The notes beneath the pieces were generated by a model that did not search any database, was not told the origin of the DNA, and saw nothing but the letters and a program-made list of their open reading frames with translations. This document shows, piece by piece, positions 220 through 37,928 of a stretch of 37,928 nucleotides of DNA (the stretch's first letter is position 1; every line of letters begins with the position of its first letter). The stretch covers positions 1 to 37,928 of IMG/VR virus record IMGVR_UViG_3300009408_000017. One strand, 5' to 3'. The translations under genes and the position numbers were made by a program. This DNA is from a virus.

Positions 220-747
220 ATGGACCAGTCGAAATTGTATGGTGATGTAGTTAATAAGTTAGATGGTGTCGGTGAGGTTGTAGTTCCTACAGCAAAGCCA
301 AGAAAGAGAATCCTACATGAGCAAGCAGGAATCTTTCTTAACTATAGGTATGACCAGGAATGTGATGTTACTAAGAAGATAAATCATGTGTTACAGCAAA
401 CACGTAGATATAAGACAGCACCTCCTACAGTAGGACTTGATGCTAGAATCAGAGAAGCTGGGCTTTGCCCTCACACTCTAGAGTCTCTTGCTATCAGACA
501 AGCTGTTACTGAACATGGTGTTGATAAACAAGGTCCTAAAACTGTTGAAGATATTCAAGCAGCTATGGATTTACTTAAGGCCGAACTAGAAGCTTTAGCT
601 CCTTCTGAGGAAACTGTAACTCCTGAAAATGTTGCTATTGTAGAAGTCTCAGCCGCTCCAGTGAAGAAGGCGACTAAGAAGAAGAAGGCGACTAAGAAGA
701 AGGCGACTAAGGTTACTCCTGTAGGAACTACTGAGCCAGACCTTTAG
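220..747 (+). CDS. unknown protein with Lys/Ala/Thr-rich histone-like tail
   Basis: A 175-aa protein that I do not recognise. Its ATG follows an AAGGAG ribosome binding site with a 9-base spacer. Residues 1-145 look globular and mostly helical. Residues 148-164 are an H1-like Lys/Ala/Thr tail made by three 15-base direct repeats. The protein ends in Pro-Asp-Leu. Its stop codon overlaps the GTG of the large terminase gene by one base, so the two are probably co-translated. In many podoviruses this slot holds the small terminase, but the better small terminase candidate is at 36818. A basic DNA-binding role in packaging or capsid filling is only an inference. Confidence 0.8.
   Translation: MDQSKLYGDVVNKLDGVGEVVVPTAKPRKRILHEQAGIFLNYRYDQECDVTKKINHVLQQTRRYKTAPPTVGLDARIREAGLCPHTLESLAIRQAVTEHGVDKQGPKTVEDIQAAMDLLKAELEALAPSEETVTPENVAIVEVSAAPVKKATKKKKATKKKATKVTPVGTTEPDL
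664..711 (+). repeat. 15-base direct repeat coding the Lys-rich tail
   Basis: Three exact copies of AAGAAGGCGACTAAG lie at 664-678, 682-696 and 697-711, each encoding Lys-Lys-Ala-Thr-Lys. Between the first two is one extra AAG codon. The identity at DNA level suggests recent slippage expansion of the basic tail. Confidence 0.85.
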
Positions 748-5864: not shown

Positions 5865-5870
5865 AAACCC

Positions 5871-5897: not shown

Positions 5898-5900
5898 CCT

Positions 5901-7127: not shown

Positions 7128-7161
7128 TAACTTAACCTTTTAATCTTAGCAGGAGGCCGAA

Positions 7162-7671: not shown

Positions 7672-7691
7672 ATACCACCTGCATTTGAGTT

Positions 7692-7730: not shown

Positions 7731-7740
7731 GGAGAGGAAC

Positions 7741-16538: not shown

Positions 16539-16540
16539 AT

Positions 16541-20576: not shown

Positions 20577-20577
20577 T

Positions 20578-21495
20578 ATGAATAATTTAAAAGTATTACT
20601 GCTTGGTTTACTAGCTTTCAACGCAGTAGCCGCTGATTATTTTATAGTTAGGGATTCAGATACTGTGGTTACTGGAGTGTTCAAAGCTGACCCAGGAGTT
20701 GCACCAATCCTACATACTAAGTATTTTGAAACTGCTGCAGTGGATATTTCAGGCTGGAATAGCGGAACTACTATAACTAGAACAGGTGTAAATACTTATG
20801 TAAAAACTTCCGAAGTTTTTCAGAAGACATCCTTTGCGGTTAACGATATTGCAAACTCTAAGCTTTGGACGCACAGGATTAATGGGACTGTTTACGACTT
20901 CTCTAACCCCTTTACAGTACTTATACCTTTCAAAGCAGCATGGGCGACAGGGCCCACTTTCGCTTTCCTATTTGATTTGTCCTCAGTATTCTACGTCTAC
21001 CTCAAAAACGGTGGGACCAGTCTAGTAACTAGACTATTCGATGCCACATCTAACGAGTCTCCCGCCTACACCTTACCTACAGCGTTAGTAGATAATCAAT
21101 GGGTATGGGTCGGAATAACTTATGATGGGGCAGGTGGGTTTCAGTATATCTTAGATGGTACCTTAATAGCTAACACAGGCTCTAAGGTACTAGTAAACAA
21201 TGCCTCTATATTCAAGTTCGGAGAGCGTTCAGGCTTCACAGTTTCTCAAGATATGGCCATGGGAAATATCCTGATTCTGAATAAGGTAATATCTGCTGCA
21301 GAACTAACAGCGTATTATAATGGGGGTGTTTCTGTAGATGCTAGAAATGTATTTTTAGACTCTGAAATAGTGCATTATTACCGTTCTGACCTAATGCAAC
21401 AAACAACAGTTTTAGATAGTGGAGGAATCAGCTCTTTGCTTAGAGGGGCCTCTACTCAAAACGGACTACTTACTACAATAGATGTTCCTAATTAG
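20578..21495 (+). CDS. secreted LamG/concanavalin-like lectin-fold protein
   Basis: A 305-aa protein with a signal peptide (MNNLKVLLLGLLAFNAVAA, residues 1-19) followed by a beta-sandwich of the LamG/concanavalin type. Visible marks are VDNQWVWVGITYDG near 164-177, the FQYILDGTLI strand near 181-190, and the closing LILNKVISAAELTAYYNGG near 232-250. Such domains bind glycans or wrap phage receptor-binding parts. It starts two bases after the previous stop in the tail operon. Alternative: a minor tail adhesin that happens to have a hydrophobic start. Confidence 0.8.
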   Translation: MNNLKVLLLGLLAFNAVAADYFIVRDSDTVVTGVFKADPGVAPILHTKYFETAAVDISGWNSGTTITRTGVNTYVKTSEVFQKTSFAVNDIANSKLWTHRINGTVYDFSNPFTVLIPFKAAWATGPTFAFLFDLSSVFYVYLKNGGTSLVTRLFDATSNESPAYTLPTALVDNQWVWVGITYDGAGGFQYILDGTLIANTGSKVLVNNASIFKFGERSGFTVSQDMAMGNILILNKVISAAELTAYYNGGVSVDARNVFLDSEIVHYYRSDLMQQTTVLDSGGISSLLRGASTQNGLLTTIDVPN

Positions 21496-21503
21496 GAGAA
21501 CGT

Positions 21504-21725
21504 ATGAAGTTTTTAATTATATTTTTGATAAGTTTCAATCTCTGGGCAGCCGTTCCTATTTATAGTGTGGCGGACACAATCAAAGTAACCCCCCCTTGTG
21601 ATAAGATGAATATGGTGGGTACGATTATAAAGGTGTGGGGTGGGGACATACCGGCTTATATGGTTGAATTTCCTGATGGAGTTCAGATATTATTGGATGA
21701 GAACCAAATAACAATTAATCCTTAA
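21504..21725 (+). CDS. small secreted SH3-like protein
   Basis: A 73-aa protein with a good AGGAG site and a signal peptide (MKFLIIFLISFNLWAA). The mature part of about 57 residues has a KVTPPCDKMNMVGTIIKVW start, then a pair of strands ending YMVEFPDGVQILLDENQI, like a small SH3/KOW barrel. One Cys is present. The signal peptide is nearly the same as that of the protein at 24918. A run of seven C residues lies at 21589-21595. Function unknown. Confidence 0.75.
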   Translation: MKFLIIFLISFNLWAAVPIYSVADTIKVTPPCDKMNMVGTIIKVWGGDIPAYMVEFPDGVQILLDENQITINP

Positions 21726-21733
21726 GAGGTACT

Positions 21734-24700
21734 ATGAAGAAGATAATTTTACTTACCTTACTATTTATATCCCAATCTTGGGCCAACTACCCTGTAGTTC
21801 AGACAGGCGGTGGAGGTATTCCTATTTGGGCACCTACTACTTCCTACACTATTGACCAACACGTTAATAATGCAGACAAGTTGTATAGGGCCAATGCAGC
21901 CTTTACTTCAGGTGCTTTATTTGTACCGGCCAATTGGTCAGAGGTTTCTGATGATCTTAATAGAGAGATAGTCGTAACTGACACAGCCCTAGTTATATGG
22001 GATGGCGTTGGTGGAGATGATGTTAAGGACTCTGTAGTCACACTAGATGGTGCTGGAGTTATGGCAGGTGTTACTGAATTGACAGGGAATTTAACTGTTA
22101 ATGGAAACCTAGATGTACTCGGTACTATAACAACGTCTACGCAAGCAGCTTTAGATATTACTAATGCTGTAATCTCAGTAAATGTTGGGGGAAACCAAGC
22201 TGCTGCCAATGCCAATGATGCTGGCCTTGTTGTTTCTATTTCTGATGCCACTAATTCTCAGATAGGTTATGACTCTACTTGCCCTACATTTTGGCAAGCA
22301 GGTTTAGTAGGCTCCCTTGATTGTGTTGTTACTGAGACTATTGCTCAGTCCTTAACCAATAAAGAGTTTGGTAACTCAGCCTCTATAGACGCTAACCTCA
22401 TGTTGGATATGGTGAGTACGTCTAAGGCCTCTAGGCCTTTCCCTATTATGACTGAAGTTCAGAGAGATGCTCTAACTGCTGTCACTGGTTCAGGGATTTA
22501 TAACTCAAATACAGATAAGGTTAATGTTTATAATGGAACGGTTTGGAAAGCTATTGGTGGGGGAATCGATGCTTGGGCAACAGCTACAGTTTACACAATT
22601 GGGGATGTAGTCCATGAATCTAATAAGATTTATCTAGCTCTTACTAACCATACAGGTGGAGTTTTCGCCACTGACTTAGGTAATAATGAATGGGTTGAAT
22701 TATCAGATGACCTTAATAGAGAAGTGGCCGTTACGGATAACGCTATCACTAGATGGAATGGAGCTGGGGGAGATGATGTCCAGGATTCCTTAGTCATCAT
22801 ATCAGACTTAGGTGCTGTCACCGGAGTCACTGACCTTACAATTACAGGTAATTTAGACATAGGGCTTACTCAGAACTCTGTAGTTTTTGCAGGGGCAGCA
22901 GGAGTTCTTTCAGAAGATAATACTAACTTTACTTGGAACAATGGGACTAAGATTCTTAATGTTACTGGAGAAGTTGATGTAGATAACCTAAGTTTAAATG
23001 GAAATACAATTTCATCTACCGATGTGAACGGCAATGTAATTGTAGATGCAAACGGTACGGGACAGTTTAATGTTCTTGATTACTTCCTAATGCCTCACTT
23101 AGCTGACCCTGCTTCAAGTCCTGCAGCAGCTAGTTCTAACTTATTCTTTAAGGCCGATGAGGTTCTCTATGATATGGACGAGAATGGTGTTGTTAACCCT
23201 ATTGATAATCGCAATTCTAATGACGTATTAGCTAACCGCTCTTTTGAGAAGTCCTTTACAGGTACAGAAGATTTAGGATGGACAGCAGTCGGTGGAGCTA
23301 CAACTCAAACATTATTGAGTGGTACTGCTAACTGCGCACCTGGACAGGGGGACCAATGCTTACAGGTATCTCCCGTTGCTCAGACATTCACATTTACTCA
23401 AAATATAAATTGCGATACTTCCGATGGGCAACTCGTAGGGTTTAGCTCATGGATAGATACTTCGACTTATGATGTTGAGATGTGTTCTCTAAGAGCAGGT
23501 GTTGTGCAGGATTGTATTACTTATTTTGCAGGAAACTCATGGAAGAAAAAGAAAGTTACAGTCTATGCCAGAACAGGTGATACCTGTGGCGTTCAAATTA
23601 GGTCAGTCGCAGCGGCCAGTGGTGCGCTAGGAATTGATGGAGTTAAGTTTGAAACTGAACCTATTAAGTTCTCGCAAAAAAGAGTTTCCCAAGACTACTC
23701 AATAAAAGAAGTACAAAGTACAATGACTTCCCTTTCAGGGGAACTTCAATTCTCAGGTGCGGCCGTAGAATCTACAGGCGCAGTATCTCTAATAGTCGCT
23801 ACAGCAGATGGAGCAAATACTAGAACCAAATGGATAGCTCAGAGAGATTGTGTTGTTACTGTTTCAGCAGATGGACTTATAGTTTCCGGTTCTCGTTCTT
23901 TAGCTGTAGCAAAAAATGACGTTATATTAAAGAGAAGTTCTTATGACATAGTAGGAACTAATGCGACAGTAGGTGTAACACATAGAATAGAGCTTCTTAA
24001 AGGTGATTTTATAACCCTTGGTGTTGCCGGTTCACCAGAGGCCAGTGGTTTTGATATTGGACAGCAGCTAATAGCTAATGCGTCTTTTACTTCTCACGTG
24101 GGGATTGTAGCAGAAGCGTATGAAGAAGTAGCAGCAAGTAGTGCTAACTCTTCTCCTAATGATATGTCAGCTTCAATTATTGATGGTGTTAGTATAGGGA
24201 CTGTTACTCCTGCTAGAGAGACTCAAGACTTTATACAGGGGAATTGTGCGGAAGCTATTGATGGTACTTACGTTTGTACTTATGTCCCAGGTTTTTTTAC
24301 TTCTACTCCTAACTGTCAAGCCACGGTAACTGACGTTGACAATGATTCTATCCTTCATATTCTAGCTGAGTCTGCTAGTTCAATTACGGTTAGAACTGGA
24401 ACTAGTGCCGCAGGTGTAGTAGGTAGGGATTTTACTTTATCTTGTGACAAAACAGGTGCAGATATTAAGCCTGTAGAACTCGATGTTAATATTCCTTTTG
24501 GGAAGACTTGCAACATCTACCCCACAATTAATGATTATATTGTAGTTCTTAACTCAACCACTTTGTATAAAACTACCGAGATGGTGGCAACTAACGGGTC
24601 TTGTGGTTTTGTAACAGTTTCAGCTAACCAAGCCAGGCTTGTTCCAGGTACATATAGAATTGAATACATTGTAGGGGTGGGATTTGGTGCGGATTTCCTG

Positions 24701-27324: not shown

Positions 27325-28622
27325 ATGGCACTCCTTAATACGACCCGTTTCTTTTCTAGGGCCTCTGTTATCATTTTATCTTGTACACTTCCGACCATAT
27401 AGTGAGCAGTACAAACCTTAGTCTGCCCGTATCTATGAACTCTCTTTAGGGCTTGTATATTATCACCAGGGACCCAGGATAAATCATTAAATATTACGTG
27501 TTTTGCTTTGGTCATATTGAAGCCAGTGTTTCCAGATTGTATAGTCATAAGGAGTACATCCCACTTACCTTTCTGGAAACCATCCACTAAATCCGCTCTA
27601 GTACTAGAGGGTGTGGAGCCGTTAAAGGAGGCCACTCTAATGCCTTTTACTTTAGATAATGTACTTCTAATATTTTCTAGAGAATCAAGATGTGCGGTAA
27701 AAACAACGAGAGGCCCCTCGCCTTCTGCTAAAAGGTCTTTCAGATATTTGGCGGTATAAGAGGACTTTAGAAGTGCAGAAGCGGCTTTCGCCGTGCTTGA
27801 GGCATCTCGTCTAGAATTGTTAGAGGTCCAAGCCTCTTCCAATTCCTTATTATCTTTATAATCTACGATTACTTGTTTTACAATCACTTCCTCTAAACTA
27901 AGTACATTTTTCGCTAATCTTCTAATGTACTTAAGGCTTAGGTATTTCTTAAGGAGGTCTACATTTCGCATCCCTTCAAATTTGGTGATGGACCTACCAC
28001 CTATATTTACTCTTATCGCTTTGGAAAACGTACTATTAAACTTCCAGGTGTTTGGGAAGTCCTGCGAAATATCCCAGCCATTAGTTTTCTTTGGAGAGTA
28101 TGAACAGAGTTTGAGTAGGGAATACCACTCAGTAATTCTATTCTGTATAGGGGTTCCGCTAAGTAAAGCGCACCTTTCCGGTTGGCCCTCATATAGAAAT
28201 CTATGAAAATAATCTGTTCTTTTAGCTGACATATTTTTGAGGTAGTGGGCCTCATCGGCGACAACGAACGTAGCCCAACTAAATAACCCTTTCGCATATT
28301 TGAGCATTGAGTAAGACATAATAATGTACTTGGTATTCGTGAAATCTTGCTCAAAATCGCTCCCTTTCTTTAGAATTTTTACGTTCTTATCTTTACTCTT
28401 ACGAAATTTTATACACTCCGCAAGCCAATTAAATTTTAAGTAGGAGGGACATATAATCAATGTCCTTTGGTTGGTAAGTTCTGCTATGGCGATTGCCTGG
28501 AACGTCTTACCTAGACCCATTTCATCCCCAAGGACGAAATAGTGGTGTAAAAGTCCGAAGCGGATACCAGTCTCCTGGTATCCTTCCGGTGGAAAATTTA
28601 ATACATTCCTAGAGGTCTGCAT
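27321..28622 (-). CDS. SNF2-family DEAD/H-box helicase
   Basis: A 433-aa superfamily 2 helicase of the SNF2 type, an ATP-driven DNA translocase. Motifs: I DEMGLGKT at 33-40, II DEAH at 123-126, III LSGTPIQNR at 154-162, IV VVFTAH, V SGNTGFNM and VI QALKRVHRYGQT at 390-401. All key residues are present, so it is probably active. It lies in a replication/recombination operon with a RecE-like nuclease and an SSB-like gene. Roles in replication restart or remodelling of protein-bound DNA are inferred. It overlaps neighbours at both ends. Confidence 0.95.
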   Translation of the reverse strand: MQTSRNVLNFPPEGYQETGIRFGLLHHYFVLGDEMGLGKTFQAIAIAELTNQRTLIICPSYLKFNWLAECIKFRKSKDKNVKILKKGSDFEQDFTNTKYIIMSYSMLKYAKGLFSWATFVVADEAHYLKNMSAKRTDYFHRFLYEGQPERCALLSGTPIQNRITEWYSLLKLCSYSPKKTNGWDISQDFPNTWKFNSTFSKAIRVNIGGRSITKFEGMRNVDLLKKYLSLKYIRRLAKNVLSLEEVIVKQVIVDYKDNKELEEAWTSNNSRRDASSTAKAASALLKSSYTAKYLKDLLAEGEGPLVVFTAHLDSLENIRSTLSKVKGIRVASFNGSTPSSTRADLVDGFQKGKWDVLLMTIQSGNTGFNMTKAKHVIFNDLSWVPGDNIQALKRVHRYGQTKVCTAHYMVGSVQDKMITEALEKKRVVLRSAM

Positions 28623-29157
28623 TTAACTGTTCTTCCATTAATTCTTTCATCTTTGTATTGAATGAAGCTAAAACTTTCCCTTGTCCAGAGAAAAGGTCAA
28701 CACCATTTAAAGTTTCAGAAGCTAACTTAGCTGCTGCTTTAATGGCCGCATCCTTCTTCCATCCTGGGTAACTCTTCTCTACAACTTCAGCAAACTTTTG
28801 TCTGTGAGCTTCGATACTTCTATCATAAGGAGAGTTTTTAGCTTTAGGAGCAGCCTTCTTAGTGACCTTCTTAGTAACCTTCTTCTCTTCCTTAACTTCC
28901 TTACTCGTACTTGGGTCAACTGTTTTACCTTCTTTAGTCTTAACATTGCCCTCATCAGTAACTTCGGCAATGGCCCCTACTGGAGTCTCACAATCAATAC
29001 CTAGCTCAGATAAAACCTGAAATTTAAGGTTCTGAATTACAGCTGGAGTATCCTTTTCATTCTCACCTACAGCTACAGATATTGTTAATTCTTCATGCTC
29101 ATAGTTTCCAAGGTTTCTTCTACGTGTGTAGGAAACATCAGTCATTCTTGTTTTCAT
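28609..29157 (-). CDS. unknown replication-operon protein with Lys-rich linker
   Basis: A 182-aa protein in two parts. Residues 1-75 hold TRRRNLGNYEHEELTISV near 11-28, a pattern I have seen in several phage proteins of unknown role next to SSB or recombination genes. A Lys/Ala/Thr linker near 88-107 (KKVTKKVTKKAAPKAK) leads to a helical C-terminal part. It ends in Ala-Asp-Leu. GGAGG lies seven bases before the ATG, which overlaps the nuclease gene by four bases. It could assist the nuclease or anneal ssDNA, but this is inference. Confidence 0.75.
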   Translation of the reverse strand: MKTRMTDVSYTRRRNLGNYEHEELTISVAVGENEKDTPAVIQNLKFQVLSELGIDCETPVGAIAEVTDEGNVKTKEGKTVDPSTSKEVKEEKKVTKKVTKKAAPKAKNSPYDRSIEAHRQKFAEVVEKSYPGWKKDAAIKAAAKLASETLNGVDLFSGQGKVLASFNTKMKELMEEQLNADL

Positions 29158-30065
29158 AGTAAATCCTCCAATTCAGATTTAGTTATTGGTTGTTGTTTTG
29201 GGTAAGTTTTAACTTCTTTCTTAGGGCTATCAGTTAGCCAATTGTCACAGACAAACTTCATAGGTCTTAACTCTTCAACAGTATCTTCAAACACCCAACC
29301 TGCGGCTGTATGTTCTTTGATAAGTTGAATGGCCCTTTTATACTTCAAACGACCTACTCTAATGAGGTCAGAAGTAGCACTGTAAACCTGGCAATTTCCT
29401 ACAGTCTTAGAAGCGAACGGCCAATAGAACTCTGTCATTCTTTTGGCATTGTTCTGAGCAGCCCAAACATTGTATAGGTCCATATACATAGCTGCGGACA
29501 TATCATAATTAAATGATTCCATAGAACTTTGAATGTCATAAACACTCTTAGCATTTTTACCTGTAGATTTTAGGTCAACCCCATAGCCCTTAAAACCAAA
29601 GAAGTCGAAACGTATTTTACAAGGCAGCCCATCAAGTTCTCCAAAGAAAGAAACTTCTGGCTCTCCATCCTGTAGAAGCTCTTGAACTCTTTCATTAGCT
29701 AAAGTCACTTCAATTAACTTATCTGCTACAGCAACATTGGCCTGTGAAAGTATGTCCTTCCCTACATTCTCTTGACGAAACTTCTCCCAAGCAGAACCTC
29801 GACGAACTTTCCCGTCAAAGATAGCGAACTCTTCCCCTAAAAGGTGAGGCTCTAAAACTCCTGCGTGGTAGTAACTTCCGATAACTAAAGCATCGGACTG
29901 TTTCATCTCTTCAGCAATTCCAAGTATGTATTTTGAATGGAACATCTCAGGGTCTTGCAACATTGTTTTAAGCTGAGAAGAGGAGAAGAATCTCTTCCCC
30001 TCAAACTCAGGTTTGTGGTAATCACTATTTGGTAACTTGTGAGAAGCTATTCTACGGGCCTTCAT
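29154..30065 (-). CDS. RecE/YqaJ-like PD-(D/E)XK exonuclease
   Basis: A 303-aa nuclease of the PDDEXK superfamily (the DUF3799/RecE-like group). Visible parts: an early helix with GSYYHAGVLEP (63-73), then GEPEVSFFG (134-142), CKIRFDF (149-155, Asp154) and VDLKST (163-168, the D-x-K core), then the helix SAAMYMDLY. Such enzymes resect dsDNA to leave 3' tails for recombination. It ends in Glu-Leu-Glu-Asp-Leu-Leu. The ATG overlaps the SSB-like stop by one base (TAATG). An annealase partner is not obvious; the gene at 28609 is a candidate. Confidence 0.88.
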   Translation of the reverse strand: MKARRIASHKLPNSDYHKPEFEGKRFFSSSQLKTMLQDPEMFHSKYILGIAEEMKQSDALVIGSYYHAGVLEPHLLGEEFAIFDGKVRRGSAWEKFRQENVGKDILSQANVAVADKLIEVTLANERVQELLQDGEPEVSFFGELDGLPCKIRFDFFGFKGYGVDLKSTGKNAKSVYDIQSSMESFNYDMSAAMYMDLYNVWAAQNNAKRMTEFYWPFASKTVGNCQVYSATSDLIRVGRLKYKRAIQLIKEHTAAGWVFEDTVEELRPMKFVCDNWLTDSPKKEVKTYPKQQPITKSELEDLL

Positions 30066-30511
30066 TACAGGTCCATCTCTTCTTCTGGCTCACCGTCGAA
30101 ATCTTCTACTGAAGCCGCAGAATCACTCCCGCCTTCATCTTCAAAAACTTCAACATCTACATCATGGAAAAATTTTCCATTAAATTTTGATTTCTCATTA
30201 TCAATAATTCCTTCCTCAAGGTACGTGAATTTACAGAAGATTTTTACTGACTTATCAGCTGGGTCATAGCTTTCTAACTTATGGTCGATAGAACCACAGG
30301 CATTAAGACATAGTGTAGAACCTACTTCTAAATACTTTCCATTATGCTCAAGCTCAAAGTTAAATTTCTCAACCTTGATATGGTAATTAGGTTTATTGTA
30401 ACTATCTTCTGAGATGTCAATCAATTGACCCTCTAGACAATCACCTTCTGACCATAATTTCCAACCTCGGTAGAACTTACTCCCCCCTATTTTCTTATAC
30501 TTTCGACCCAT
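30065..30511 (-). CDS. OB-fold, SSB-like protein with acidic C-terminus
   Basis: A 148-aa protein that probably coats single-stranded phage DNA, as T7 gp2.5 does. Evidence: a beta-rich body with EGQLIDISEDSY and GKYLEVGSTLCLN, and a strongly acidic disordered tail (about 124-148) ending EEEMDL, as in SSB and gp2.5, which use such tails to bind partners. A strong GGAGG precedes the ATG, with a hairpin 3 bases upstream of it. Location between polymerase and nuclease fits. No decisive OB motif can be seen, so the family is inferred. Confidence 0.75.
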   Translation of the reverse strand: MGRKYKKIGGSKFYRGWKLWSEGDCLEGQLIDISEDSYNKPNYHIKVEKFNFELEHNGKYLEVGSTLCLNACGSIDHKLESYDPADKSVKIFCKFTYLEEGIIDNEKSKFNGKFFHDVDVEVFEDEGGSDSAASVEDFDGEPEEEMDL

Positions 30512-30591
30512 GAGGTCCTCCTTTGAGGGTTTCTCCCTCGGTTATTTATATGTGTTTTCACGTTATTCCTAATAACATTCCTCGCTATCTT
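30512..30591 (-). promoter_or_regulatory. two hairpins between polymerase and SSB-like gene
   Basis: This is the only real gap in the lower leftward operon. On the minus strand it holds a hairpin GTTATT-cct-AATAAC (30562-30576) and a second, GAGGG-N5-CCCTC (30525-30539). The second sits three bases before the GGAGG ribosome binding site (30517-30521). Neither has a clear T-run, so RNA processing or translational control is more likely than termination. A TATAAA lies between them without a good -35 box. Confidence 0.45.
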
Positions 30592-32661
30592 TCACAGTAA
30601 GTCCTCCAAAGATTCATAATCGAAGTATTTACGGAACTTTTCGTATTCATCTATAGACCTATCATCGACATAAATTTTCATCCTCTTAACGTCAAGGCCG
30701 TTAGGTGTTTTAATTTCCTCAATCTTACTCGGGTAATCAGGAGACCATATACAAGAATCGAGTCCCACGTTAGCAAATTTCCTATATTTGTCAGTGAAAA
30801 TATCCCTAAATGCTCTAACCATACAATCCGCCAGAATATCGACAACCCCCAAGTCGCTAGAATCAAATTCAACATACAAAGCGTCGTGTAAAGTGAGGAT
30901 GACATCGAGGTTAGCTTCCTGCGTATATTTGACAGCTCTCCGTAATATGGAGGAAGCTGCACCTTGTGTGGGAAAGTTCGTAACACTTCGCCAATTTCTG
31001 TTGTTTCCGAACATAGTCCAGCCGCATGGGTTTTGTAAATATCCTTTATCTTCGTACTCTTCTTGGACTTCGTCACAATACTCTCCATAGTCAGGGAAGG
31101 TGTCATAGAACATATCAATGTATTCCTGTGCTTCTTCTTCCTCTATATTCTCACCACTATCAGCAGATAATTTCTTGGCCAATGAGAATGAACCCATTTT
31201 ATATTGAACTGCTAAAGTAGTTTGTTTAAATTTATCTCTTAACTCTCCGTGACTTTTCTTAGTAGCATTCTTTGGAATTACTCCACAGGCCTTACCAAAC
31301 CAGAGGTAAACGTCCCCCGATTCATAAGCCCGTATCATATTCATATCACCAGCTAACAGGCCGCCAATTAAGAACTCTTCTGATTTGAAATCGATACTAC
31401 AAATTGCTCGCCCGAGTTTGGGCTGTACAAGACTTCGCATCCATGCTGCCTTAAGAAATATAAAGCCTGTACTAGATGGCTGGTTTCTACCTGACTGGCT
31501 TCCATAGATGTTAAGGAACGGTCTACTCCTCCCATCATTTCCAATCGAATCCCAAAAGGTTCTCTTACTATTTTTCGATGGCATAAATCCATTAAGATTT
31601 TGTTTTGTTTTGAGAAATCTAACAATTTGTGCGCCGAAATTATCGGATGGGTAGCTATGTTTGAAGTCAAAATAGCGTGTGAAAGCCTCCATTGATAAGG
31701 AGATATTACCAGTATCGGTAATCTGCCACATTGGCCCGTCAGGTAGTTCGTCGCCGTCATAATCCCAAGCAATTTCGTTTTTCTCGCAATAGTCTCTAAC
31801 CCACTCTCTCGTTTTGTCTTGCTTCCATACATATTTCCATGTCCTCTTATTTAATTGGTAGGGATGAACCTCTGGGAATAGCCCATTAATCTCTGACTGA
31901 ATGTCGAATAAAATGCTTGGCACGGCATTGCTAAAGTTCTTAGTCGATTCGTAATCAATAGGGTATCCCAGGGATTCAATTATAGCTGTACGAGCGGAGT
32001 ATTCTCCTTGATATAGGAGGTCGCTCTTAAGCTTTTTAAAATCTTCTTTATTAAGCAATTTAGAATAAGCTTCAATCATCTTATTAAATAATTGCTTCAA
32101 ATAAACTATATCCGAAATATTGTATCCGATGATGTCCCGCTCATCTCTCTCACTAAATTCATCAGGTGTGGAAATGATTAAGTCCCTCATCTCTGTCTTA
32201 TGTTTAGTGTCTATTTCAATTCCTAGAAGTTTGTATAAAGCGGATCCTATATTGTGCTCCGCCTGACCCCCTGACACACCCTCTTTCCTTAAATACTTAG
32301 GTTTGGGTGGGAAAGTTCTCTTAACCTTTCCATCTATAAGTTGTTTACCATATTGATACTTGTGACAATGATTGGTTAACTGTCTCCAACTAACGTAAAG
32401 ACATATCCACTTAAAATCTGTTGGTCTTAAACCTAATGCTTGAAATGAACGAGCTTCTGACATCACGCCGAAGCAGATAAATATATAGCCCTGGTTATTT
32501 AAGTCGAGTAAAATGTCTCTTAGTTCTATCTTTCTGCCAGCATCTTTGTGAAGCCAGATAGACTTTGTTTTACCTTCAATCTCCCACGCACAAGACACAA
32601 GGTTTAAAACTTTGTCACTAGTATGGTTGAACTCAAAATCGATTTGGCAGTAGAGGCTCAT
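30592..32661 (-). CDS. family A DNA polymerase with 3'-5' exonuclease
   Basis: A 689-aa replicative polymerase of the T7 gp5/Pol I type. The ATG at 32661 has GGAG six bases upstream and overlaps the homing endonuclease stop (ATGA); an upstream in-frame TTG at 32673 is less likely. The exonuclease domain shows DFEF (residues 8-11) and ISDIVYL near 190. Polymerase motif A is SIDFKSEEF near 420. Motif B is R-x3-K-x7-Y near 482, with Leu where Phe/Tyr is usual. Motif C is LHDALYVEF near 594, with Ala after the catalytic Asp in place of the common Glu. It ends in Leu-Glu-Asp-Leu-Leu. Confidence 0.95.
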   Translation of the reverse strand: MSLYCQIDFEFNHTSDKVLNLVSCAWEIEGKTKSIWLHKDAGRKIELRDILLDLNNQGYIFICFGVMSEARSFQALGLRPTDFKWICLYVSWRQLTNHCHKYQYGKQLIDGKVKRTFPPKPKYLRKEGVSGGQAEHNIGSALYKLLGIEIDTKHKTEMRDLIISTPDEFSERDERDIIGYNISDIVYLKQLFNKMIEAYSKLLNKEDFKKLKSDLLYQGEYSARTAIIESLGYPIDYESTKNFSNAVPSILFDIQSEINGLFPEVHPYQLNKRTWKYVWKQDKTREWVRDYCEKNEIAWDYDGDELPDGPMWQITDTGNISLSMEAFTRYFDFKHSYPSDNFGAQIVRFLKTKQNLNGFMPSKNSKRTFWDSIGNDGRSRPFLNIYGSQSGRNQPSSTGFIFLKAAWMRSLVQPKLGRAICSIDFKSEEFLIGGLLAGDMNMIRAYESGDVYLWFGKACGVIPKNATKKSHGELRDKFKQTTLAVQYKMGSFSLAKKLSADSGENIEEEEAQEYIDMFYDTFPDYGEYCDEVQEEYEDKGYLQNPCGWTMFGNNRNWRSVTNFPTQGAASSILRRAVKYTQEANLDVILTLHDALYVEFDSSDLGVVDILADCMVRAFRDIFTDKYRKFANVGLDSCIWSPDYPSKIEEIKTPNGLDVKRMKIYVDDRSIDEYEKFRKYFDYESLEDLL

Positions 32662-33188
32662 ATATGGCTCCAACTTTTACCAATACTAATATTTGTAATA
32701 GTGTCTCTACAAACTTTAAATCTTTTAGCTACATCTTTCTGATAGACCCCTTCTTTTAGGAGTTTTCTTATCTCTAGAATGTCTTTATTTGTAAGTTTAG
32801 AATTGTAATGTTTCTCGCCTCTATAGTCTCTAAGGCCAGTTTTTACAGAGTGTTGCATATTTTCTAAGTTAGTACACCATTCAAGGTTTGAAACTCTGTT
32901 GTCTGTTTTCAAACCATTGATGTGGTTTACTTGCGGTTTCTCGCCTTCTGGTTTAAAGGTTTGAAGTATAAGACGATGGACGAGTTTATTCACTCTCCCA
33001 CCATCTTTACATAAAAGCAATGCTCTATAGCCGTATATATTGATACAGCCGACCAATACTCTCCCTCGTATAAGAACTCTACTTTTAGACTTTCCAGAAA
33101 CGATGCGCTCTATAGAACGGACCAATCCCAGATTTGATGCCTGGTAGAACCCCTCATATTGAGGTATGTCTTTCCAAATTTCTTTCAA
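32658..33188 (-). CDS. free-standing HNH homing endonuclease (NUMOD4-HNH type)
   Basis: A 176-aa selfish nuclease. Order of parts: NUMOD4-like EIWKDIPQYEGFYQASNLG (3-21), HNH core with LVHRLILQTF (69-78, His71), VNHINGLKTDNRVSNLEW (87-104, catalytic His89) and NMQHSVKTG, then a helix-turn-helix DNA-binding end (KDVAKRFKVCRDTITNI). Start is TTG with AGGCGG six bases upstream. It is inserted between helicase and polymerase, a frequent home for such genes, and its stop overlaps the polymerase ATG. No intron is visible. Confidence 0.92.
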   Translation of the reverse strand: MKEIWKDIPQYEGFYQASNLGLVRSIERIVSGKSKSRVLIRGRVLVGCINIYGYRALLLCKDGGRVNKLVHRLILQTFKPEGEKPQVNHINGLKTDNRVSNLEWCTNLENMQHSVKTGLRDYRGEKHYNSKLTNKDILEIRKLLKEGVYQKDVAKRFKVCRDTITNISIGKSWSHI

Positions 33189-33198
33189 TTTATACCGC

Positions 33199-34728
33199 CT
33201 AAAGAAGACCGTCTAACTCGTCTTCACCGTTATTACTTTCAAAACCACTAACGTCCACTGAGTCAGAAATTTCCTCATCTTGTGGGTGGAATAAACTTTC
33301 TACCAATATTGTCCATGACCCGTCAACCTTGCTCATTTTTGCCAATCGTTGAGTCCCTCCGTGATAATAGGAGGTTAGGAAATCTTCTACCTTTTTATAA
33401 TTTGCTGGAAACCTAGCAAACTTGCCTTTCTCCTTAACAAACTTACGTGTTAAGGATTTTAATGTAATTTCTTTAAAATCTTTTGACATTATTTTATCAA
33501 CTATGAATTTCTGCCATTCAAATAGTGAGTGATAAGCTAAATCGAAGAATTTAACACCTCTTAATACAGAGAACTCATCCATATCTTCATCTTTACCATG
33601 TAGGAAAATGAAGTAGCCAAAGTCATGGGCCAGTTGCTCATCACTTTCTATCAACTTAGAGAGCTCCTTTATCTCCTCAATGTCCATTGTGTCCGTTAAC
33701 AACCTATTAGTTAATTGAGGAACCGAAAATCTTCTATCGTCTGATTCAATGTGCATATCGCTAGAATCGTTATTTTGTACAATATAGGAGTTATAAACCT
33801 CTAGAGTCTCGGCGTCTAAACCCTTTTTTTCTACAGATTGAAACTGATTGGCAAGGCGTTTAAGTTTGGTATGTCCCTTTTTATCCACCCTTTCTTCATC
33901 AAAGGAGATAACTCTCTTGTTCGCTATAGGTCCATTGAATTGAGTCGTTAGGATTGACCCTGGGGCCTCCTCATAATGCTCTTTACCTACTAACATTCTA
34001 ACTAGGGAGCTCAATACCCCTTTACCGATTCCCTTGGCCCCGTTAAGGATAAGGAAGGTTTGATTTCTACTAACTAGTGCATTATAGAGCCAATTAAGGA
34101 CGAAATTTCTGTCCACCTCGTCTGGCAATAAGTGAGTTAGAACCTCCCAAATGGCAGGTGGACATTCGACATTCTGGGGAACGACTTTTGTCCGCCACTT
34201 GGGAGGTATATAAGTATTGACCTTGAGAACCTTCTGGCCCTCAAATTCAATGCCAATAAATGATTCAAGATTATAAGGGTCATAGCTTAAAATAGCGTGA
34301 CGCATTTCCGAATTGTGGTACTCCTTATCAGATTTCTCCAGCATCTTCTCCCAAACTGTATAATTTAATTGAGAGAGTTGCTTCTCCTGGACATTATAAA
34401 GCACTGTATTAGCAGTATATACATCCATAAGAGGAATAAAGGATTTTACCTCCACCCTTAAATTAGGTAGAGCATCGGAACCCATTTCCACATCAAGCAT
34501 ATTGTCAAAACGAAGTTGAATTTCCTCTAAAACTTCACCAAAGAACTTATTTTTACTCTTCTCAGTTTTAGTTAGGATGTCTAGGGAATCCCCCAGATAC
34601 TTAGGTTCTACAAAGTCCTTAAACTTATATCTAAAGGTCTGTTTACCATCTATACGGACTGATTTATTTGTAAAATCAGAAAACTCGAAATGTTCTAATA
34701 GATTGTCTGCTACTTCGACTACGTTCAT
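33199..34728 (-). CDS. SF3-type replicative helicase (primase-associated, DUF5906-like)
   Basis: A 509-aa helicase for the replication fork. Walker A LNGAKGIGKG (228-237), Walker B VISFDEER (273-280), a sensor motif YIVQNND (315-321) and DDRRF with an arginine finger (330-334) match superfamily 3 helicases of phages and plasmids. The N-terminal 200 residues do not show clear primase metal motifs, and no separate primase is seen in the window. It ends in Asp-Glu-Leu-Asp-Gly-Leu-Leu. GGGG lies eight bases before the ATG. Confidence 0.9.
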   Translation of the reverse strand: MNVVEVADNLLEHFEFSDFTNKSVRIDGKQTFRYKFKDFVEPKYLGDSLDILTKTEKSKNKFFGEVLEEIQLRFDNMLDVEMGSDALPNLRVEVKSFIPLMDVYTANTVLYNVQEKQLSQLNYTVWEKMLEKSDKEYHNSEMRHAILSYDPYNLESFIGIEFEGQKVLKVNTYIPPKWRTKVVPQNVECPPAIWEVLTHLLPDEVDRNFVLNWLYNALVSRNQTFLILNGAKGIGKGVLSSLVRMLVGKEHYEEAPGSILTTQFNGPIANKRVISFDEERVDKKGHTKLKRLANQFQSVEKKGLDAETLEVYNSYIVQNNDSSDMHIESDDRRFSVPQLTNRLLTDTMDIEEIKELSKLIESDEQLAHDFGYFIFLHGKDEDMDEFSVLRGVKFFDLAYHSLFEWQKFIVDKIMSKDFKEITLKSLTRKFVKEKGKFARFPANYKKVEDFLTSYYHGGTQRLAKMSKVDGSWTILVESLFHPQDEEISDSVDVSGFESNNGEDELDGLL

Positions 34729-34778
34729 TAATATTTCCCCAGAATTTTATATGAGCTAAAAGGATAAAGACTTAATGG

Positions 34779-34901
34779 TTAATCTGTCAAGTCTCTATCT
34801 TGTTCACATTTACACTTTCCTTCCTCGTCACGCTCCGAAAAGCACGTAAAGCAAGTATCGTCGGCCTCGTGGGCCAAATCCTCTACAGAATACCCAATCA
34901 T
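34779..34901 (-). CDS. 40-aa zinc-ribbon-like microprotein
   Basis: A 40-aa acidic protein with CFTC (residues 17-20) and CKC (32-34), spaced like a tiny zinc ribbon. Its ATG overlaps the stop of the previous gene (ATGA at 34898-34901) and has AAGGA six bases upstream within that gene's end. It sits before the helicase gene in the early operon. The coupling and ribosome binding site make it a likely real gene; its role is unknown. Confidence 0.6.
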   Translation of the reverse strand: MIGYSVEDLAHEADDTCFTCFSERDEEGKCKCEQDRDLTD

Positions 34902-35170
34902 AACTTATCCTTTTTGAATCTCTCTTTAAATAGAAACCCTGCTGCTATACCAATGGCAACACCTACTTGGGTGTCTTTTACCGGTAGAGAGGCTATTTTT
35001 TCAATAATGCCTCTAAGGTTTAGGATTTCTTTGGTTAGTTCTTGGTAGTCTTCAATAGACATAGTCACCAATAGGTTATTCTCTTCACCTATCTTATCCA
35101 CTTCTTTCTCTATGGATTCTAGAAGCACCTTAATGCTTCTAGCACCTTGTAATATTTTATAGCTGCTCAT
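34898..35170 (-). CDS. coiled-coil protein with C-terminal membrane segment
   Basis: A 90-aa protein: residues 1-65 are helical with heptad-like spacing (VLLESIEKEVDKIGEENN, then ELTKEILNLRGIIEKI), and residues about 69-82 are hydrophobic (VGVAIGIAAGFLF), ending in a basic tail. It is probably tail-anchored in the inner membrane with its coiled coil in the cytoplasm. GGAGG lies just before the ATG, which overlaps the upstream gene. No family recognised; early membrane proteins of phages often block superinfection or alter host functions, but this is inference. Confidence 0.7.
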   Translation of the reverse strand: MSSYKILQGARSIKVLLESIEKEVDKIGEENNLLVTMSIEDYQELTKEILNLRGIIEKIASLPVKDTQVGVAIGIAAGFLFKERFKKDKL

Positions 35171-35466
35171 AAATCCTCCAGGACATCTTTGTTTTCATAT
35201 CGTTTTTTGAGGTACTCTGTTCTAACCTCAATTGCGTGTACGATTCTAAAAAACTCTTCAAACTTTAATTGCCACCCCATATTGACTATTCTGAACCATC
35301 TAGTCCTTTCAATACCAAGCATACGTGCGGCTTCTGCTTCTGATTTGGGCTTACAAATTTCCTCAAAGGCCCTAATTATATCCTTCTCCAGCTCGTCAAT
35401 TTTCCCAGGAAGAAACTTTCCTTTATTTACAAAATGTTTGAATAGTAGGGATAGTTTAAGATTCAA
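35167..35466 (-). CDS. helix-turn-helix protein, probable regulator
   Basis: A 99-aa protein, starting with TTG four bases after the upstream gene stop. The central SEAEAARMLGIERTRWFRIV (about 42-61) looks like a helix-turn-helix of the Fis/NtrC C-terminal type, where a related helix pair binds DNA. An acidic helix precedes it. It ends in Asp-Val-Leu-Glu-Asp-Leu. A DNA-binding role is likely; targets are unknown. The palindromes at 35772 and 35942-35975 lie close upstream. Confidence 0.7.
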   Translation of the reverse strand: MNLKLSLLFKHFVNKGKFLPGKIDELEKDIIRAFEEICKPKSEAEAARMLGIERTRWFRIVNMGWQLKFEEFFRIVHAIEVRTEYLKKRYENKDVLEDL

Positions 35467-35469
35467 AGC

Positions 35470-35760
35470 CTATTCATCCTTGTTGTATTTATTTTTAGGT
35501 ATCAATTTTTCTCGCAGAGTTATTAACCTTTCTTGGGATATAAATAGTGGCTCATCACTTAGGCAGAAATTACAGACTCTAGTCCTTATGGAGTTTTTTC
35601 TTAAAAGGAAACAATATAGTTCATCACAAACCCCACAAACCCTATATCGGTTTGGGGCCTTTAAAATCCTGTTAGCTCTATTGTATTCCCCTGTCCTAGA
35701 TTTCCAATAAGAGTAATCCCCACCCTTATAGGTATATCCATTATTTGGTCTAGTTTTCAT
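35470..35760 (-). CDS. zinc-finger-like early protein
   Basis: A 96-aa basic protein from the ATG at 35760 (a GTG at 35766 is an alternative; AGG is five bases before the ATG). CGVC near residues 42-45, a Cys near 50 and CNFC near 65-68 could bind one zinc. The rest is Arg, Lys and Tyr-rich. It is the first gene after the control region, so it is expected to be transcribed early. Zinc-binding phage proteins of this size often bind host RNA polymerase or nucleic acids; the role here is unknown. Confidence 0.7.
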   Translation of the reverse strand: MKTRPNNGYTYKGGDYSYWKSRTGEYNRANRILKAPNRYRVCGVCDELYCFLLRKNSIRTRVCNFCLSDEPLFISQERLITLREKLIPKNKYNKDE

Positions 35761-35771
35761 AAACACCTATT

Positions 35772-35787
35772 TTCTACATTCGACGAA
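35772..35787. promoter_or_regulatory. operator-like palindrome, early site 1
   Basis: TTCTACATTCGACGAA, identical to the site at 5849-5864, lies between the candidate -10 box at 35808-35813 and the ATG at 35760. A protein bound here would block leftward early transcription. Confidence 0.6.
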
Positions 35788-35789
35788 TG

Positions 35790-35804
35790 ACGACACTTTT
35801 ACTT
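35790..35804. promoter_or_regulatory. repeated motif ACGACACTTTTACTT (copy 2)
   Basis: This near copy of the sequence at 103-118 lies two bases beyond the palindrome at 35772-35787, between it and the candidate -10 box. Its role is unknown. Confidence 0.35.
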
Positions 35805-35866
35805 AAATTTATACTTTTTGAATTACCGCCTAAAAAATCAACATTTCCTTAAAATTATTTTATTAA

Positions 35867-35888
35867 TAAGGTGCCTACTAGTACCTTA
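35867..35888. repeat. dyad in AT-rich stretch
   Basis: TAAGGT (35867-35872) and ACCTTA (35883-35888) form a 6-bp dyad with a 10-base loop, flanked by AT-rich sequence on both sides (35850-35900). No T-run follows, so it is not a clear terminator. It could be an origin element or protein site. Confidence 0.4.
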
Positions 35889-35890
35889 AT

Positions 35891-36013
35891 TTAATCTAAT
35901 GAAAAGCACTTTTTGTCACTACATGACGCCACTTTTACACTTTCTACGTCCGACGAAAATTCTACGTTTGTAGAAAATGTTGAAAAAGTAGATGTGTAAA
36001 ATGTTTTAGTCAT
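35891..36013 (-). CDS. possible 40-aa Ser/Thr-rich microprotein
   Basis: A 40-codon frame starting at ATG 36011-36013 with AAGGA eight bases upstream. The product is rich in Ser, Thr and Phe and ends with two Cys and an acidic Leu-Asp. The frame covers two of the 16-bp palindromes and one CACTTTTAC motif, so it may be a by-product of regulatory DNA. The ribosome binding site is the main argument for a real gene. Confidence 0.35.
   Translation of the reverse strand: MTKTFYTSTFSTFSTNVEFSSDVESVKVASCSDKKCFSLD
35926..35942. promoter_or_regulatory. repeated motif ACGCCACTTTTACACTT (copy 3, looser)
   Basis: This is a looser relative of the motif at 103-118 and 35790-35804, directly abutting the palindrome at 35942-35957. 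Pairing with a palindrome is shared with copy 2. Confidence 0.3.
35942..35957. promoter_or_regulatory. operator-like palindrome, early site 2
   Basis: TTCTACGTCCGACGAA differs at three positions, all in the central six, from none of the half-site bases of the site at 5849: both outer half-sites TTCTAC and GACGAA are kept and only the 4-base centre changes. It starts 18 bases from the next palindrome. Confidence 0.58.
35960..35975. promoter_or_regulatory. operator-like palindrome, early site 3 (perfect)
   Basis: TTCTACGTTTGTAGAA has perfect half-sites TTCTAC/GTAGAA. It lies 18 bases (centre to centre) from site 2, under two helical turns, which would allow two dimers to bind side by side. Confidence 0.6.
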
Positions 36014-36075
36014 GATGTGTTATCCTTATTATAATTTTAAACTTATCAGCCTTCTATTCTACTTGACAAGCTACC

Positions 36076-36339
36076 TTATAGCAATTCATCAAGGTCAAAT
36101 TTTTCTTCTATTTCCTCAATTTCCTGTAGTTCTAACAGCTTAGAAATGTTACGAGGGATGAGAAGCTCCTTAATTGGGACCTTCCCATCCGTTAAATGCA
36201 CTATATTGATAGCAATATGCAGTGGCGGCTGTCTGTCACCATTCATATAGTTATAAAGGGTAGAAGTATCACATCCTATAGATTTAGCGAATTGTGCTTT
36301 TTTTACCTTATGTTTGGTTATAAATTCTATGAGTTTCAT
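36076..36339 (-). CDS. Cro/CI-like helix-turn-helix regulator
   Basis: An 87-aa DNA-binding protein of the XRE type. KAQFAKSIGCDTSTLYNYMNGDRQP (about 14-38) is a clear HTH: helix 2, turn and recognition helix with the usual Ala and Gly positions. The rest holds a dimer-like helix and an acidic C-terminus ending in Asp-Leu-Asp-Glu-Leu-Leu. It has a good sigma70-like promoter at 36380-36407 with a palindrome over the expected start, so it probably represses itself. Its ribosome binding site is weak. It is the best candidate to bind the 16-bp palindromes. Confidence 0.88.
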   Translation of the reverse strand: MKLIEFITKHKVKKAQFAKSIGCDTSTLYNYMNGDRQPPLHIAINIVHLTDGKVPIKELLIPRNISKLLELQEIEEIEEKFDLDELL

Positions 36340-36357
36340 TCTTTTACCGCCAGGTGT

Positions 36358-36373
36358 GTAGGATGATTCCTAC
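36358..36373. promoter_or_regulatory. perfect palindrome over the regulator's transcription start
   Basis: GTAGGA-TGAT-TCCTAC is a perfect 6+6 inverted repeat. It lies 6-7 bases downstream of the leftward -10 box (36380-36385), where the start of transcription is expected. Its half-sites run in the opposite order to those of the TTCTAC-type sites, so it may be bound by a different face or protein. Confidence 0.55.
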
Positions 36374-36379
36374 CTATTC

Positions 36380-36407
36380 TTTATATCACAATTTCCTAAT
36401 CGGTCAA
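36380..36407 (-). promoter_or_regulatory. sigma70-like leftward promoter of the regulator gene
   Basis: On the minus strand TTGACC (36402-36407) and TATAAA (36380-36385) are separated by 16 bases. Both boxes are close to consensus. It drives the HTH gene at 36076 and possibly the leftward genes beyond. Confidence 0.68.
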
Positions 36408-36428
36408 ATGCCGTGTAATCTTTACCTT

Positions 36429-36836
36429 ATGAAGAAATTCTATAATTTACAAAAGAAGAAGCTACGTATGGCCTCTTTAACTCATCCTGGAAGGAAGGAA
36501 GTTTTAGACGGTTGTAAGGTTAAAGTTAAGGTAGGTTTGTACAAAAACGGTAAGGACAAGTTTCTTATTTATTATAAATGCGCCACATGTTCTAAGGAAT
36601 TTAGACCTAAAGAGGTGGATGTTGACCATATAATTGAGGTGGATGTCCTTTATAATGAGTATTATATTTGTTTTAGTAATCAGTTGCTTAACATATCGTT
36701 ACACCAACTAGTGATTATGGCACTTTCCGCTGCTATATTTTGCCCTACTTCCAACCTTCAGGTACTATGTAAACCATGCCATAAGATTAAAACCGGAAAA
36801 TTCCAGGAGTTACGCAGATGGAGTCAGTCGCTATAA
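36429..36836 (+). CDS. HNH nuclease next to the small terminase
   Basis: A 135-aa protein from the ATG at 36429; a start at 36354 would add 25 residues and overlap the leftward promoter. Residues 51-54 (CATC) and 114-117 (CKPC) are zinc ligands, VDVDHIIEV (63-71) holds the HNH His and NLQVLCKPCHKIKT (109-122) the N and H. In many tailed phages an HNH protein beside terminase takes part in DNA cleavage during packaging. It overlaps the small terminase start by 19 bases. The ribosome binding site is weak, so the start is uncertain. Confidence 0.85.
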   Translation: MKKFYNLQKKKLRMASLTHPGRKEVLDGCKVKVKVGLYKNGKDKFLIYYKCATCSKEFRPKEVDVDHIIEVDVLYNEYYICFSNQLLNISLHQLVIMALSAAIFCPTSNLQVLCKPCHKIKTGKFQELRRWSQSL

Positions 36837-37408
36837 ATTTTCTTAACCTCCCTACCGAGTTAACAGAAGGGGATGAGGAAGAGAACGAGAATAAGCTGGA
36901 AGAGTATTTCAAGCTTATCATGGTCGAGAACCTAGAGGCGGCCATGTATAAACGACCTGAGAGATATAGGCCAGAATATGCCGCCCTTCTTTATCATCAT
37001 GTAGCAGTTAAGGGCAACACCATAAAAACCTTTGCCCTTTCAATTGGTATTCAGCCTGAAACTTTCTATCGTTGGGGTAGAGAATATCCAGAATTAACCT
37101 TAGCTAAAAAAATGGCCCAGAACGCCCACGCTATAAGGTGGGAAAAGCATTTAGATAAAGCGGCCAGCGGTGAAGCTAAAGGAAATGCAGCGGCCATCAT
37201 CTTTGGTCTTAAAAATAAGCTGCCAGACGAATACAAGGATAAACGAGAAATTGACCATAATGTTGCTCATTATGTGATTGATACTGGTGTTAATTCAGCA
37301 CCAATTGAAGCTGAAAGTCATATTGTGGGACCTGTAGAGGTTATTGAACCCTCAATACCAACCATAGAGACTGGCATTGAGGATGAAAATTTGGACGATT
37401 TACTTTAA
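36818..37408 (+). CDS. terS: terminase small subunit
   Basis: A 196-aa protein that recognises packaging sites for TerL. Residues about 66-84 (NTIKTFALSIGIQPETFYRW) form an HTH, followed by a helix with AIRWEKHLDKAASG and the IIFGLKNKLPDEYKDKREIDH segment (about 127-147) typical of this family. The acidic C-terminus ends Glu-Asn-Leu-Asp-Asp-Leu-Leu. AGGAG lies eight bases before the ATG. It would lie upstream of the gene at 220 and TerL if the window is circular. Its end overlaps the convergent pentapeptide gene by nine bases. Confidence 0.87.
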   Translation: MESVAINFLNLPTELTEGDEEENENKLEEYFKLIMVENLEAAMYKRPERYRPEYAALLYHHVAVKGNTIKTFALSIGIQPETFYRWGREYPELTLAKKMAQNAHAIRWEKHLDKAASGEAKGNAAAIIFGLKNKLPDEYKDKREIDHNVAHYVIDTGVNSAPIEAESHIVGPVEVIEPSIPTIETGIEDENLDDLL

Positions 37409-37928
37409 AATATCCTCGGCCCTATGACTATTTTTTGCATAGTCATAAATTAATGTTTGCATCTCTAACACTTCAATATCATCACAGTCCATCGAACATA
37501 TAAAAGCCGCCAACATTAAAGGTAACGATTTACATGTTTTAATTCCAATACCTCCACACCAAAGAGGGAAACAGGAATAATCAAGGCCAGCACCTTTAAG
37601 GTCAGCACCTCGAAGGTCAGCACCTTTAAGGTCAGCACCTTGAAGGTAAGCACCTCGAAGGTTAGCACATTGAAGGTTAGCACATTGAAGGTTAGCACAT
37701 TGAAGGTCAGCACCTCGAAGGTCAGCACATTGAAGGTCAGCACCTTGAAGGTCAGCACCTCGAAGGTAAGCATTTTGAAGGTCAGCACCTCGAAGGTCAG
37801 CACCTCGAAGGTCAGCACATTGAAGGTCAGCACCTCGAAGGTCAGCACCTTTAAGGTCAGCACCTCGAAGGTCAGCACCTCGAAGGTAAGCATTTTGAAG
37901 GTCAGCACATTGAAGGTTAGCACATTGA
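37400..37928 (-). CDS. pentapeptide-repeat protein (N-terminus beyond the edge)
   Basis: At least 175 aa in the frame that ends with TAA at 37400-37402. About 22 tandem units of the form Ala-(Asp/Asn/Tyr)-Leu-X-X run from the window edge to 37587 and would fold as a right-handed beta helix. The last 60 residues are not repetitive and hold CFPLWCGG, which I have seen after pentapeptide repeats in phage proteins, then an acidic helix. Function is unknown; pentapeptide helices can mimic DNA. If the ends of the window join, the frame continues to an ATG at 84-86, giving 204 aa. Convergent overlap with the small terminase is nine bases. Confidence 0.85.
   Translation of the reverse strand, partial: QCANLQCADLQNAYLRGADLRGADLKGADLRGADLQCADLRGADLRGADLQNAYLRGADLQGADLQCADLRGADLQCANLQCANLQCANLRGAYLQGADLKGADLRGADLKGAGLDYSCFPLWCGGIGIKTCKSLPLMLAAFICSMDCDDIEVLEMQTLIYDYAKNSHRAEDILK
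37587..37928. repeat. 15-bp tandem repeats coding pentapeptides
   Basis: About 22 units of the type GTCAGCACCTCGAAG run to the edge, differing mostly at the bases for the two variable codons and the Asp/Asn/Tyr codon. Leu is always CTT on the coding strand. Near-identity of units at DNA level means they can recombine or collapse in assembly. Confidence 0.92.

Follow-up and report, generated by a model that had tools for sequence, protein, structure and literature searches.

Shared C-terminal tails on the early proteins

The stretch of DNA considered here, hereafter the window, covers the 37,928 bases recorded for an uncultured virus (IMG/VR record IMGVR_UViG_3300009408_000017), and our subject is a short C-terminal tail that recurs on otherwise unrelated proteins of this phage. 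The late genes occupy the plus strand over about 0.2–26 kb of the window, and the early genes lie mostly on the minus strand at 26.3–36.3 kb. Five proteins have in common the ending L-[DE]-[DEG]-L-L-COOH (Table 1): a family A DNA polymerase (...YESLEDLL), a RecE-type exonuclease (...KSELEDLL), a DUF5906 primase/helicase (...GEDELDGLL), a Cro-like helix-turn-helix (HTH) regulator (...KFDLDELL) and the terminase small subunit, TerS (...ENLDDLL). The names of the polymerase, exonuclease, primase/helicase and TerS are backed by Pfam or PHROG family matches, and that of the regulator by HTH_3. These matches stop short of the C-termini: at residue 618–620 of 693 in the polymerase (DNA_pol_A, E = 1e-19), near residues 251–266 of 303 in the exonuclease (DUF3799, PDDEXK), by residue 60 of 87 in the regulator (HTH_3, E = 2e-5) and at residue 149 of 196 in TerS (phrog_309, E = 2e-16). 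The tails lie 27 to 153 residues past the family-matched domain, and short linear motifs behave likewise. All nine C-termini cited in the original prediction match the sequence exactly; the four looser ones (VLEDL, EEEMDL, NADL and EPDL) have nothing in common beyond an acidic stretch and a terminal leucine and are weaker evidence. The label of single-stranded DNA-binding (SSB)-like given there to the protein of 30065–30511 found no Pfam or PHROG match.

Table 1. Positions of the tails and of related features. Coordinates are those of the window unless prefixed with L010, the second contig described below.
Feature	Gene	Coordinates	Strand	Remarks
LEDLL tail, RecE-type (DUF3799, PDDEXK) exonuclease	29154-30065	29157..29171	-	37-residue extension past domain
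LEDLL tail, family A DNA polymerase	30592-32673	30595..30609	-	DNA_pol_A match
LDGLL tail, DUF5906 primase/helicase	33199-34728	33202..33216	-	preceded by acidic, Ser/Asn-rich stretch
LDELL tail, Cro-like HTH regulator	36076-36339	36079..36093	-	HTH_3 match
LDDLL tail, terminase small subunit	36818-37408	37391..37405	+	phrog_309 match
Looser tail EEEMDL, acidic-tailed (possibly SSB-like) protein	30065-30511	30068..30085	-	no family match
Looser tail VLEDL, small protein	35167-35466	35170..35184	-	overlaps Shine-Dalgarno of next gene
Looser tail NADL, 182-residue protein	28609-29157	28612..28623	-	sequence
Looser tail EPDL, 175-residue protein upstream of TerL	220-747	733..744	+	identical in L010
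Pentapeptide-repeat gene with 15-bp tandem repeats, right end of window		37516..37928	-	sequence repeat
Predicted DnaN-type mini-clamp, 187 residues		L010:886-1449	-	outside the window, in the same phage

The sharing of the tail was assessed over 39 curated open reading frames (ORFs) of the window, comprising 12,115 residues. The pattern L[DE][DEGNSQ]LL occurs five times in this set, each time at the exact C-terminus. The broader LxxLL is found 15 times anywhere in the ORFs, from which 0.05 would be expected at C-termini (binomial P about 2e-9). When every pattern of three positions within the six C-terminal residues was considered, L--LL was common to five proteins, and 5,000 resamplings gave three at most, so the comparison with resampled termini places the sharing beyond chance. 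Among 4,016 control ORFs from the other phage loci fetched, none ends in L[DE][DEGNSQ]LL and three end in LxxLL. The tail observation is confirmed and strong. The claim that virion proteins lack the core tail also holds, with 5 of 16 proteins carrying it in the early region and none of 23 in the late region (Fisher p = 0.008).

Restriction to non-virion genes is a feature that degradation signals might also have, the tails then marking early proteins for a host protease that clears them late in infection. Hydrophobic C-termini can act as degrons, as in the ssrA/ClpXP and FtsH systems, and this counts in favour of such a role. Acidic residues beside the end, however, disfavour known C-terminal degrons, and the small terminase is a protein that is required late; we consider this explanation quite improbable.

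A constraint acting on the DNA rather than on the protein would be another source of the pattern, either through Shine-Dalgarno sequences and overlapping starts that happen to encode Glu-Asp-Leu-Leu, or through a terminal segment copied without functional selection. The tail of the 29154 gene and the looser tail of the 35167 gene do overlap the GGAG that precedes the overlapping ATGA start of a coupled gene. They are the only two: downstream of the polymerase, helicase, Cro and TerS tails there is no start codon at a suitable distance. Overlap with a Shine-Dalgarno sequence explains no more than one of the five core tails and was rejected as a general cause. The polymerase, RecE and TerS tails are alike in their DNA (TTG GAS GAY TTA CTN; best-trio P about 0.02), and one short DNA segment may have been copied between these three genes. 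The helicase and Cro codons, in contrast, are unrelated to those of the trio, and yet specify the same protein pattern. Since the pattern persists on otherwise unrelated proteins, it appears that selection has kept it, and an origin purely at the level of DNA seems very unlikely.

A predicted mini-clamp on a second contig of the phage

A scan with an alignment of the portal protein found a second contig, L010, that is identical to the window over positions 1–14434 (100%) and nearly so over 14371–22728 (99.99%). This is clearly the same phage; the other portal relatives found are distant (37% identity or less). Upstream of window base 1, L010 continues for another 4,430 bases. The right end of the window breaks inside 15-bp tandem repeats, which is a probable assembly break, and for this reason L010 1–4430 probably fills the gap between the two ends of the window, an arrangement that would put L010 base 1 beyond window base 37928. 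The segment carries minus-strand genes and has a guanine–cytosine (GC) skew of -0.136, compared with -0.145 in the early region; its GC content is 33%, below the 38.5% of that region. It supplies no less than 4.4 kb of early genes absent from the window, encoding an ArdA antirestriction protein (E = 1e-17), a clamp homologue and a protein with a weak DUF4942 match. A 49-residue ORF in the same segment (L010:3790-3939, minus strand) ends in DKELIELF, an acidic-hydrophobic sequence that resembles the hexameric clamp motif ending in Phe.

The clamp homologue is a 187-residue protein, equivalent to about 1.5 beta-clamp domains per chain, which behaves in sequence comparisons as a divergent DnaN-type mini-clamp. 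Its only PHROG matches below E = 0.5 are phrog_3007 (8e-4) and phrog_6615 (9e-4). E. coli DnaN matches the same two families at 6.5e-24 and 1.2e-7, respectively, which identifies both as beta-clamp families. When 40 phage records were searched in six frames with the two families, this gene alone matched (E = 1.2e-5 and 4.7e-5). With a hidden Markov model of IMG/VR mini-clamps the score was 20.2 bits (E = 5e-5), whereas the best of 2,000 shuffles reached 7.1 bits, and hhalign placed it colinear with the clamp alignment across residues 23–187 (P = 0.0015). The clamp signatures VATDGH, VDGRFP and VVMPMRL, which represent the general forms ATDGHR, DGRFP and a C-terminal MP[MV]RL, appear in order and with conservative changes, as VATNGH, INGKYP and a terminal IIMPLKL. 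An AlphaFold2 (AF2) model computed with a 24-row clamp alignment had a pLDDT of 62 and a pTM of 0.59, and its top Foldseek matches were beta clamps (best E = 6e-3 in the PDB and 3e-4 among viral structures), although clamp homologues guided the model and these matches are thus partly circular.

Mini beta clamps of phrog_3007 are encoded by Serratia phage Eta (gp10), Shigella phage EP23 (gp08), Burkholderia phage Bcep43 (gp15) and Vibrio phage pYD38-A (gp08). These proteins, at 170–193 residues, similarly comprise about 1.5 beta-clamp domains and carry DGH and DGRFP signatures. The 187-residue protein is 17–27% identical to 23 aligned mini-clamps, its middle-domain part is shortened further, and it is the only mini-clamp found here that is accompanied by shared tails on other phage proteins. 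The note on Eta gp10 cites the beta_clamp motif cd00140, and Bcep43 gp15 is noted as a DNA Pol III b subunit fragment. In PHROGs v4, phrog_3007 is named as a RusA-like Holliday junction resolvase and yet is a half-size beta-clamp family, with examples at L096:4330-4869, L099:5926-6438, L101:3229-3765 and L100:10407-10988. Given the match of E. coli DnaN to phrog_3007, RefSeq phage genes that bear this name are mislabelled.

Proposed docking of the tails on a sliding clamp

It is highly probable that the tails dock on a partner of some kind, and since the polymerase itself carries one, a third-party hub is the probable partner. The original prediction proposed a docking peptide and named a sliding clamp among several candidates, an idea that gains support from the beta-clamp-like protein predicted in the same phage outside the window. 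We favour, with moderate confidence, the explanation that the tails are a C-terminal sliding-clamp-binding motif, most likely one for the phage's own reduced beta-type clamp.

Bacterial clamp-binding motifs such as the C-terminal QLVLGL of Pol IV and the AMSLF of the clamp-loader delta subunit are, like the tails, short, often C-terminal and acidic in their flanks, with two final hydrophobic residues and a free carboxylate (PMC11139829). All five core tails end in Leu-Leu, which supplies the two C-terminal hydrophobics ([LM][FL]). They differ from the bacterial motifs in lacking the position-1 glutamine (5 of 5), none having a Gln among its final five or six residues. The hydrophobic residue at position 4 is present only if the motif is taken as the last five residues, and the aliphatic Leu at position 2 only in a hexameric reading, where Asp, Glu or Gly falls at position 4. 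The earlier statement that known clamp motifs differ from the tails is correct for Gln, but ligands devoid of Gln do exist, for example the delta sequence just mentioned.

In the E. coli beta clamp the two final hydrophobics of the motif enter subsite I (R152, L155, T172, G174, H175, R176, L177, P242, R246, V247, V360 and M362), helped by acidic flanks and the C-terminal carboxylate, whilst subsite II receives the position-1 Gln (PMC11139829). In the alignment, L155, T172, G174, H175, L177, P242 and M362 are identical in the 187-residue protein and V360 is replaced by Ile; beyond these, P363 is unchanged, with Leu in place of M364 and Lys in place of R365. The Gln-pocket positions N320, Y323 and V344, by contrast, are not recognisable. 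The part of the site that would hold Leu-Leu thus appears mostly kept and the part that would hold Gln does not, which fits tails that have the former and lack the latter, as far as a remote alignment can be read. The same evidence bears on whether the tails might dock on the host beta clamp instead, with the phage mini-clamp serving some different purpose, such as that of a decoy or adaptor. For the most part this pocket is conserved among bacteria, and it accepts ligands that have no Gln, the delta peptide being one (PMC11139829), and a clamp loader, not recognised in the phage, is present in the host. The five tails, however, lack both the Gln and the hydrophobic residue at the canonical position that host clamps prefer (PMC11139829), and the motif is better suited to a phage clamp whose pocket is altered on the Gln side. 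Docking on the host clamp we regard as unlikely.

If the phage's own clamp is the receptor, the motif [x]-L-(acidic)-(D/E/G)-L-L-COOH would be read by the 187-residue protein. The last two leucines, with the free carboxylate, would plug into subsite I, the hydrophobic part of the site that is retained, and the acidic residues would aid by charge. The clamp would slide along the DNA and keep the polymerase, the RecE-type exonuclease and the primase/helicase tethered there by their tails during replication and recombination, and the Cro-like regulator and small terminase might be drawn to replicating DNA, so that regulation and packaging would be coupled to replication. Loading by the host clamp loader, or a ring that opens by itself, would be needed. 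We infer binding, specificity, ring formation and each of these downstream effects.

The closest parallel in design is phage T4, where the sliding-clamp-binding motifs of gp43, gp55, gp33 and DNA ligase, which bind gp45, are also hydrophobic/acidic sequences at the extreme C-terminus (PMC2988020, PMC7892883). There too the tails sit on linkers, on polymerase and transcription proteins of unrelated structure, and the clamp is encoded by the same phage. Deletion of the last 20 residues of the T4 gp41 helicase abolishes stimulation of priming by the clamp (PMC3012046), and clamp, late transcription and packaging are linked through the interaction of gp55 with the terminase gp17 (PMC9026906). Unlike gp45, a PCNA-type clamp, the homologue described here is of the beta type (DnaN) and about half the size. 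LxxLL is not like a PCNA-interacting peptide, and the carriers include RecE, the primase/helicase, the Cro-like regulator and TerS. In its fullest form, our proposal is that this podovirus-like phage of roughly 42 kb uses a T4-like tool-belt made of unrelated parts, in which a DnaN-type clamp of half size, with a Gln-less LxxLL-COOH code of its own, gathers all five carriers and couples replication, regulation and packaging on one ring; this broader scheme is tentative, and we hold it to be plausible but somewhat short of probable.

The tails might instead bind a different hub, for example by mimicking an acidic SSB-type tail and competing for a single basic-hydrophobic pocket of some partner from the phage or the host. 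Acidic C-terminal tails are found in T7 gp2.5 and gp4, and T7 polymerase is a receptor of such tails. The acidic character of the tails here, and the looser EEEMDL of the 30065 gene, resemble those of SSB and T7-type proteins. However, the core motif is a spaced L-x-x-L-L rather than an acidic run followed by one terminal aromatic residue or Pro-Phe, the polymerase that receives the tail in T7 is here a carrier of it, and the SSB label lacks family support. We therefore think it improbable that such a hub is the partner.

Several observations weigh against docking on the phage clamp. The clamp homology of the 187-residue protein is remote: a Pfam search with it gave no match, its pairwise alignment to E. 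coli DnaN alone was not significant (z about 2) and single-sequence AF2 modelling was unsuccessful. The gene lies on another contig of the phage, outside the window, and none of the genes in the window was recognised as that of a clamp loader. In the predicted pocket R176, R246 and V247 of subsite I are not conserved, and the tails fit neither the canonical clamp motif Q-phi-x-[LM]-[FL] nor its hexameric form. Three of the tails may share a DNA ancestry, which would reduce the number of independent gains. No shared C-terminal tails were found at 80 other mini-clamp phage loci; the prediction of a general rule failed, and a mini-clamp alone is thus no predictor of tails. Lastly, relatives close enough to reveal co-conservation of tail and clamp were not found in the collections searched.

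Should the clamp explanation be correct, a small phage would have evolved the tool-belt logic of T4 with a different branch of the clamp superfamily and another peptide code. The half-size DnaN proteins, which are found in many phages and are often misnamed RusA-like resolvases in PHROGs and RefSeq, would also gain a function. Tethering the small terminase or a Cro-like regulator to the clamp would be a simple means of tying packaging and gene control to replication, and, more generally, phage-specific terminal motifs could reveal a docking hub without further information than the sequence.

Relatives of the phage and neighbouring genes

Scans of viral contigs with the polymerase, primase/helicase, SNF2 helicase and clamp returned, apart from the same phage, relatives of at most 26% identity, and scans of genome contigs returned none. 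In the collections searched, no portal relative closer than 37% identity was found except the same phage. Pelagibacter phages and Manatee Spring podoviruses with a similar portal and TerL have other replication genes and no shared tails. The 26% helicase relative, in contig L002, ends in GDDDL, which is suggestive only, whilst in L004 the ending is VRT. L002 belongs to a different phage, in which this DUF5906 helicase relative (9470-11128) is accompanied by a DNA methyltransferase homologue (15491-16561) ending in VLDEL; the two endings may be a less strict version of the shared tail.

The family A polymerase is rare, and the sole clear relative from an isolate is in a Silvanigrella aquatica phage record (30% identity over 78%), which stops before the C-terminus of the polymerase. 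The host may be a Silvanigrella-like bacterium, although this relative offers a hint and no more. Between the primase/helicase and polymerase genes, an ORF at 32658-33188 of the window, overlapping the start of the polymerase ORF, resembles an HNH homing endonuclease by eye.

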